From positions 1-28,161 of the IMG/VR virus record IMGVR_UViG_3300021425_000136: a stretch of DNA of 28,161 nucleotides. One strand, 5' to 3'. The DNA comes from a virus. The notes beneath the pieces were generated by a model. It saw only the letters and a list, made by a program, of their open reading frames with translations. It had not been told where the DNA came from and searched no databases. The position numbers and the translations under genes were made by a program. Of this stretch, positions 150 through 640 are shown piece by piece (position 1 is the first letter of the stretch; each line of letters starts with the position of its first letter).

Positions 150-178
150 TTGACTATATAGAATGTAAGGTCTATAAT
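150..178 (+). promoter_or_regulatory. Near-consensus sigma70 early promoter
   Basis: TTGACT (150-155), a 17-nt spacer and TATAAT (173-178) match the bacterial housekeeping promoter in 11 of 12 bases with ideal spacing. T4-like phages use host sigma70-type promoters for early genes. The predicted start, near 185, falls at the first base of the structured leader, so this promoter most likely drives the leader and the micro-genes to 1010. Confidence 0.8.
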
Positions 179-184
179 GACCAC

Positions 185-256
185 ACGTTCATCCCATTCG
201 CCATTTGCGAATAGCGAATGAGACGCAAGTAAGTCGCGGAACGGAGCGTTCATCCT
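185..256 (+). promoter_or_regulatory. Structured 5' leader resembling a glutamine riboswitch (glnA / Downstream-peptide type)
   Basis: The leader begins CGTTCATCC (186-194) and ends GAACGGAGCG (239-248). CGTTC 186-190 can pair with GAACG 239-243 to close the element. Inside lie the hairpin CATTCGC 195-201 / GCGAATG 214-220 and the unpaired block GACGCAAGTAAGTC (222-235). From memory, this order (GUUCAUCC, a variable hairpin, GACG-AAGUA, GAACG) is that of the glnA and Downstream-peptide RNAs, which bind glutamine in cyanobacteria and sit before short ORFs. The ribosome site GGAG (243-246) lies in the closing helix region, 10 nt before ATG 257. CGTTCATCC recurs at 247-255 and offers a competing partner for GAACG, a possible switch. 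No covariance search was possible. Confidence 0.7.
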
Positions 257-451
257 ATGTTATCATTAACATTAATCTTTTTTAGTCATATCCAACCTGA
301 GCTTTTTCTTAGGTGCGAAGACTATCTTTGGTTAAAACAGGGGTTGGAAGAGAGTAGTCTTTTCACACCTGCGGAAAAGTTGGATATCACCCTTCATTGG
401 ATGGAACATACTAATCCCACCTGTTTTGATAACAAGGACGCAAACGACTGA
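257..451 (+). CDS. Small protein under riboswitch-like leader (64 aa), hypothetical
   Basis: A 64-residue protein with a hydrophobic N-terminus (MLSLTLIFF) and an acidic, Trp/Cys-containing remainder. Translation would start at ATG 257, 10 nt after GGAG (243-246) in the structured leader. It does not resemble the cyanobacterial glutamine synthetase inactivating factors IF7/IF17, whose genes are the usual targets of such leaders, so its function is unknown. If the leader senses glutamine, the protein should act on host nitrogen metabolism or be needed at a particular nitrogen status. That is inference from position only. The reverse strand is also open here (332-613), but without leader or promoter support. 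Confidence 0.6.
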   Translation: MLSLTLIFFSHIQPELFLRCEDYLWLKQGLEESSLFTPAEKLDITLHWMEHTNPTCFDNKDAND

Positions 452-493
452 AGGAACGGGAATTAACATTCTCATTTCTTTAGGAGTAAACCG

Positions 494-640
494 ATGAATC
501 TTCTTAACCTTTACAGCAACAACACTTCTTATCGTGGCATCTCTTATGATCCCCATTCTAAGAAGAAAGTTGAAACCCACACCGTTCTTGAAACCTATCG
601 TGGTGTCAAGCACGAGGAAAAAGTGGAGGTTGCAAAATGA
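494..640 (+). CDS. DUF4278-like micro-protein (48 aa)
   Basis: Starts at ATG 494 behind a good ribosome site (TAGGAG 481-486) and ends at TGA 638-640. The product is basic and carries two Tyr-Arg-Gly motifs: TSYRGISYDP at residues 11-20 and ETYRGVKHE at 33-41. Repeated YRG motifs with following aromatic and charged residues are the hallmark of DUF4278, a family of unknown function found in cyanobacteria and cyanophages. The next gene starts inside its stop region (ATGA overlap at 637-640), so it belongs to the same early operon. The family assignment rests on motif recognition and is moderately secure. The function is unknown. Confidence 0.65.
   Translation: MNLLNLYSNNTSYRGISYDPHSKKKVETHTVLETYRGVKHEEKVEVAK

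Follow-up and report, generated by a model that had tools for sequence, protein, structure and literature searches.

Glutamine riboswitches of cyanobacteria have DUF4278 genes as their main partners; IF17, a factor that inactivates glutamine synthetase, has DUF4278 as its N-terminal domain, and a switch of this kind in Prochlorococcus raises the expression of its gene when nitrogen is in excess (PMC6316151). T4-like cyanophages have been stated to carry glutamine riboswitches (PMC9964418, PMC9602691), and those of phages have been discussed for Melnitz-like phages (PMC9004378). Riboswitches are usually conceived as leaders placed before genes; in the element described here, a gene would itself be part of the sensor, so that sensing of the ligand, folding, and translation of that gene would have to compete for one RNA. 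The literature searched, which reached few subscription papers, yielded no account of a gene lying within a riboswitch aptamer. Structured RNAs with a gene in a loop are represented by group I introns, which carry ORFs in peripheral loops; these are ribozymes and mobile elements, whereas the present element is kin to metabolite switches, and the start and stop ends of its gene are predicted to pair within the sensor's own helix.

The closest relative is the class I glnA RNA (RF01739), with which the element shares the core (CGUUCA - P2 - GACG.AAGUA - P3 - GAAGGAACG), the three-way junction and a DUF4278-type gene downstream, and from which it differs in holding a whole gene in the P3 loop (in relatives also in the P2 loop) together with an extra inner hairpin and a P2-like helix. 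Likeness to the class II Downstream-peptide RNA (RF01704) lies in the CGUUCA..GGAACG framework, a J strand with a distant partner and the association with short ORFs; class II, however, has its own J consensus and its J pairs just after P1, whereas the partner here comes after the gene and is then followed by the class-I word. Ordinary class-I phage monomers (L060, L109 and others) have the same core and the same kind of downstream gene, but nearly all are without a nested gene, the exceptions being L544 and L556.

The window, meaning the whole stretch of DNA analysed, is a 28,161-base IMG/VR virus record whose relatives in the phage collection belong to the T4-like cyanophages, family Kyanoviridae. 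An initial annotation had described positions 185-256 as a glutamine-riboswitch-like leader in front of its 64-aa target. This leader is real and conserved far beyond chance, but it is a 5' half only; that half had been correctly seen, and the matching 3' half on the far side of the gene (437-458) had been overlooked. Taken as a complete aptamer, 185-256 is rejected, since the loop E GAA and the 3' strand of P3, both beyond the 64-aa gene, are missing from it. Judged on sequence comparison, the entire element, from a T4-like cyanophage, is quite probably a glutamine riboswitch of class I (glnA-type) that has been split open around a complete gene. The designation as a glutamine riboswitch is supported and that as a leader before its target gene is not: the 64-aa gene is enclosed by the aptamer, and what follows the complete aptamer is the DUF4278-like gene at 494-640.

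The finer claims about the 5' half agree with the sequence. The strong promoter placed exactly at the leader start is present as TTGACT/TATAAT, the latter 7 nt before CGTTC; the 9-nt repeat is CGTTCATCC, found at 186-194 and again at 247-255; the conserved block is GACGCAAGTAAGTC at 222-235; GAACG stands at 239-243; and GCGAAT is duplicated (207-212 and 214-219). Two alternative partners had rightly been proposed for this GAACG, and RNAalifold predicts the equivalent of 239-243:247-251 in 32 relatives. A -10 box is present at most loci, usually ending 7-8 nt before F1, and the transcript is expected to start at about 184-186, with the first P1 strand. The features of the locus are collected in Table 1.

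Table 1. Features of the composite element and its flanks in the window (positions of the window; RNA helices and functions as predicted)
Feature	Position	Strand	Basis or remark
Sigma-70-type promoter	150..178	+	TTGACT (150-155), 17 nt spacer, TATAAT (173-178); sequence
P1 5' strand CGTTC (copy F1)	186..190	+	RF01739 alignment of compact relatives; RNAalifold
P2 hairpin, slot 1	192..223	+	Covarying stem in relatives; slot statistics
T_A: GACGCAAGTA - JA - C - GGAACG	222..243	+	Presumed loop E strand AGTA = 228-231
JA, P3 5' strand AGTCG	232..236	+	Pairs with 445-449 across the gene
Inner hairpin GAACG-GAG-CGTTC before nested gene	239..251	+	RNAalifold consensus; sequence
F2, second CGTTCATCC copy	247..255	+	Begins 10 nt before ATG
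P2' 5' strand TCCT	253..256	+	Pairs with AGGA 435-438, closes slot 2 around the gene
Nested gene, 64 aa, PHROG 13397	257..451	+	Hydrophobic N-terminus, Cys20, Cys56
P2' 3' strand AGGA	435..438	+	Stem kept across ORFs; permutation test
T_B: GACGCAAA - JB - GAA - GGAACG, aptamer 3' half	437..458	+	
JB, P3 3' strand CGACT	445..449	+	Pairing with JA in 99 loci
CTGAAG, proposed off-state strand	448..453	+	Can pair with CTTTAG 478-483 over Shine-Dalgarno AGGAG 482-486
GAA, presumed loop E strand opposite AGTA 228-231	450..452	+	RF01739 consensus alignment in relatives
P1 3' strand GAACG	454..458	+	RF01739 alignments, RNAalifold
DUF4278-like small protein, 48 aa, presumed regulated gene	494..640	+	PF14105, phrog_5049

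The two halves were brought together by comparison of relatives: a first set of 120 loci was gathered by pattern and compared for the order of its conserved words, and the set was then enlarged to 251 composites, in 226 of which both ends are present. The word order is fixed, running from F1 (CGTTCATC) through insert 1 to T_A (GACGCAAGTA-JA-C-GGAACG), and after 2 to 8 nt from F2 (CGTTCATC) through insert 2 to T_B (GACGCAAA-JB-GAAGGAACG); in the window, the 3' half reads GACGCAAACGACTGAAGGAACG (437-458) and overlaps the end of the 64-aa gene. The core of the leader is common to 426 phage records, and the arrangement is widespread in cyanophages, with hundreds of records. That it escaped notice is most likely due to covariance models not reaching across a gene, and the arrangement suggests hunting for genes within other known riboswitch classes. 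A scan of genome contigs for the inner-hairpin pattern gave, among the matches listed, chance-like occurrences scattered over unrelated bacteria.

The RF01739 consensus has AAGUA before P3 and GAAGGAACG after it; T_A has the former part and T_B the latter, so that only the composite is complete. The class-I junction words GACG.AAGUA and GAAGGAACG, together with P1, P2 and P3, are all present in the window (186-190/454-458, 192-223, 222-236, 445-458). P1 (186-190:454-458), P2 (192-223) and P3 (232-236:445-449) are thus predicted to form a class-I three-way junction that encloses the 64-aa gene. The position of the P3 loop would hold the inner hairpin (239-251) and the P2-like helix (253-256:435-438), with the gene in the loop of that helix. 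AGTA at 228-231, opposite GAA at 450-452, is taken to be a loop E motif, and this GAA overlaps the stop codon TGA (449-451).

In the Rfam covariance check proposed in the initial annotation, both families match the window site and both remain below threshold (RF01704, 15.7 of 33 bits; RF01739, 14.9 of 35 bits, with the 5' half only). With RF01739, no match in the window bridged the P3 loop with its roughly 210 nt; it is because of these that the composite stays below the cut-off, and the window copy is therefore classed as a variant of RF01739, not a plain member. Six compact composites, loci in which both inserts are short (hairpins instead of genes), exceed the RF01739 cut-off of 35 over their full length: L017 (43.6 bits), L095 (42.9), L337 (42.3), L072 (40.3), L083 (40.2) and L394 (39.6). 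In the alignments listed, P1 is formed by F1 and the last GAACG, and the P3 loop holds 38-48 nt. The cut-off of RF01704 (33) is passed by unit A of one compact relative (L083, 35.7 bits). The class-II pseudoknot, in which J pairs with the strand directly after P1, was not found, JA covarying instead with JB after the insert, where GAAGGAACG follows. Kinship with glutamine riboswitches was rightly recognised; lack of both a match above threshold and compensatory changes had been named as grounds for abandoning it, and this check does not refute it, since compact relatives exceed the cut-off and compensatory changes are plentiful. Sub-threshold matches to SymR, mir-19 and other Rfam families were rejected as chance.

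Covariation across the gene supports the same architecture. JA and JB (P3) form standard pairs at 495/495 positions in 99 short-type loci and covary with the gene between them, the co-changing types being AGTCG/CGACT, AATCG/CGATT, ATTCG/CGAAT, AATCT/AGATT and AGTCA/TGACT; in the longer JA/JB types, the pairing includes one or two mismatches that recur. The observed P3 pairing was reached by 0/20,000 shuffles for ORF loci and by 8/20,000 when only distinct pairs were counted, sequence kinship being ignored in both. For P2' across ORFs, where the window has only 4 bp, the fourth pair is Watson-Crick in 28/35 distinct ends (12.4 expected; 0/5000 shuffles, kinship ignored), and the P2 stem of slot 1 is weaker, 79/5000 shuffles reaching the observed mean stem with kinship again ignored. 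P2-type stems kept across genes include TCCTATG..AATAGGA, TCTTATG..CATAAGA, TCCCATG..CATGGGA and TCCGAAT..CATCGGA. The variety of Watson-Crick types is a stronger argument than the shuffles, which ignore relatedness.

In 32 compact composites, RNAalifold recovered P1, P2, the inner hairpin and P2' unguided, and the named structure reached 96.4% paired cells with a covariation score of 0.235, versus 0.013-0.074 for slid versions. P1 and the inner hairpin are invariant (nearly all CGTTC/GAACG) and hence without the covariation that would settle the partner of P1; the assignment of F1 with the last GAACG as P1 rests on class I homology, Infernal, RNAalifold and deletion variants, and is to that extent a prediction. 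The minimum-free-energy folds of the window and of the compact locus L017 (8336-8422) differ from the composite structure, which in L017 has -25.7 kcal/mol against -28.0 kcal/mol for the minimum; thermodynamic folding alone misses the composite model and was not relied on.

An alternative reading of the same words is that of two tandem aptamer-like units, one at 186-243 and the other at 247-458, which would have a P1 each and be joined by a kissing JA:JB interaction, unit A being class-II-like and controlling the 64-aa gene. F1 and F2 are identical, as are both GAACG copies, so that F1 can pair with 239-243; on compact loci, RF01739 gives 31-37 bits to unit B alone and 27-28 bits to unit A alone, and unit A of L083 passes the RF01704 cut-off (35.7 bits against 33). 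Against these points stand the division of the class-I core, with unit A lacking GAA and unit B lacking GUA so that a complete loop E exists only in the composite, the preference of Infernal for the full composite in six loci and of RNAalifold for the nested topology, the retention of class-I topology in L530, L503, L552 and L544, and the folding energies of L017 (-18.6 kcal/mol for the tandem fold with JA:JB uncounted, against -25.7 for the nested one), which together make independent tandem units unlikely.

Considerably less probable is an RNA whose structure serves to protect or process the early transcript, or to bind a protein, without sensing a metabolite: nested ORF RNAs are indeed unusually folded, but the element shares its conserved core with a proven glutamine aptamer and is followed by a DUF4278 gene, the known partner of that aptamer (PMC6316151). 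An incidental or ancestral RNA resemblance, with the conserved halves serving as recombination borders for the exchange of small ORFs at the DNA level, would explain why the same protein family occupies slot 1 in L571-L577 and slot 2 in the window, its stop codon adapted, and why the slots interchangeably hold a hairpin or an ORF; it is hardly credible as the sole account, because the covariation of P2, P2' and P3, the promoter at P1 and the conserved riboswitch target downstream require an RNA function. Cassette exchange may nevertheless occur in addition to that function. The preferred reading remains that of a single class-I riboswitch opened around a gene.

Comparison shows the insert to be coding, with a dN/dS of about 0.2 for the window's protein family. 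In a protein-first search, the ATG lay exactly 10 nt after an F copy in 26/26 homologous genes with an upstream flank, the homologs occupying slot 1 in some cases and slot 2 in others. Nested proteins are mostly 45-75 aa long, have a hydrophobic N-terminus and a conserved pair of cysteines, and belong to PHROGs 13397, 504 and 6471, which are without known function; AlphaFold models the window protein as mostly helical, confidence being high only at about residues 21-50. The aptamer strand itself supplies the last codons of the 64-aa gene (DAND-stop). Nested ORF RNAs fold better than codon-shuffled copies (mean z -2.33, versus -1.01 for control coding pieces; n=90 each), and the window RNA at 257-451 does so much better (z -3.07), as one would predict were compactness needed to bring the two ends of the gene together. 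In L596 (Synechococcus phage S-RSM4), the annotation places the start of the nested gene later, and in the S-RIM32, S-H35 and S-B64 records the gene is unannotated.

The regulated target is likely the gene at 494. Its product matches PF14105 (DUF4278) with an E-value of 2.5e-5, at 25.0 bits vs a cut-off of 25.3, and phrog_5049 with 1.3e-13; the PF14105 cut-off is exceeded by the corresponding downstream gene of L115, and a YRG (DUF4278-type) small protein is the next gene in 217/219 loci. CTGAAG and CTTTAG can form 6/6 pairs with one G-U, and an A-C combination in this pairing occurs in 0 of 97 loci with comparable sequence; the expression-platform pairing lies above shuffles over all loci and is weak on distinct pairs, kinship being ignored. 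By analogy with the cyanobacterial relatives, the ligand would be L-glutamine and the element an ON switch, with which the pairing of CUGAAG is consistent. Further downstream, a terminator-like sequence is seen at 985-1030 (GGAGGGG..CCCCTCC, then a T run), which may mark where the early operon that starts at about 184 ends.

A two-way metabolite switch is proposed tentatively, at somewhat less than an even chance, in which folding would shut the enclosed gene by tying its start to its stop and open the next gene, translation would keep the parts of the sensor apart, and P2 and P3 would serve as interchangeable cassette sites. The RNA would begin at P1. With the aptamer folded and its ligand bound, the nested gene would be off, its start region being held in the inner hairpin and the P2' helix, and CUGAAG would be tied up in P3 and loop E, leaving the Shine-Dalgarno sequence of the DUF4278 gene free and that gene on. 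In the unfolded state, ribosomes would read the nested gene, stop within the aptamer strand (TGA 449-451) and hold the aptamer open, and CUGAAG could pair with CUUUAG over the Shine-Dalgarno sequence of the DUF4278 gene. With the start region in a hairpin and helix and the stop codon in P3 and loop E, a translating ribosome and a folded aptamer would be mutually exclusive; the outcome would be a reciprocal switch between two small phage genes that reads host nitrogen status. The direction of this proposed switching rests on the ON behaviour of the cyanobacterial relatives and on a weak pairing argument. A possible substitute for reciprocal control is plain translational coupling, with the terminating ribosome melting the helix over the next gene's Shine-Dalgarno sequence. 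If the proposal is true, marine phages would read the nitrogen status of their hosts directly, and the response would be aimed at a protein family related to IF17.

Insert lengths are bimodal, either hairpin-sized or gene-sized with almost nothing between. Among the 226 composites, slot 1/slot 2 contents are hairpin/hairpin in 77, hairpin/ORF in 77 (the window type), ORF/ORF in 43 and ORF/hairpin in 29; slot 1, a hairpin in the window, holds an ORF in about 30% of relatives. In the first 136 loci, the long inserts are ORFs whose ATG lies 9-21 nt after F, nearly all at 10-11; of the long inserts in general, nearly all have their ATG 9-13 nt after F. These ORFs end at T_A or at most 11 nt from the T_A start, or mostly inside T_B, so that the aptamer strand writes their last residues (..DAND or ..DAKAD).

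Natural variants agree with the class-I assignment. In L530, L503 and L552, JA and JB form a plain P3 hairpin; L544 and L556 are ordinary class-I monomers with their own P3 hairpin, a 63-aa gene in P2 and a DUF4278-type gene downstream. The class-I monomer pattern (L060, L109, L453-L566) occurs at 117 places in viral contigs, with a YRG gene downstream in 97, and most such monomers have a different expression platform, with GGAAAC..GTTTCC around the ribosome site. A three-link chain is present at L115:6504-6824, consisting of a hairpin slot with T_A of the GCCGACTC type, a gene slot with a second T_A of the GTCAC type, and a hairpin slot with a TGACT-type T_B, its JB being matched by the second JA only. 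The variant composite at L511:4076-4160 combines a unit A with GAAGGAACG and a unit B with GTACGCCGACTGAAGGAACG, and is perhaps an intermediate between monomer and composite. The contig of the compact composite L017 also carries a PhotoRC-II RNA (L017:1021-1116, 57.1 bits).
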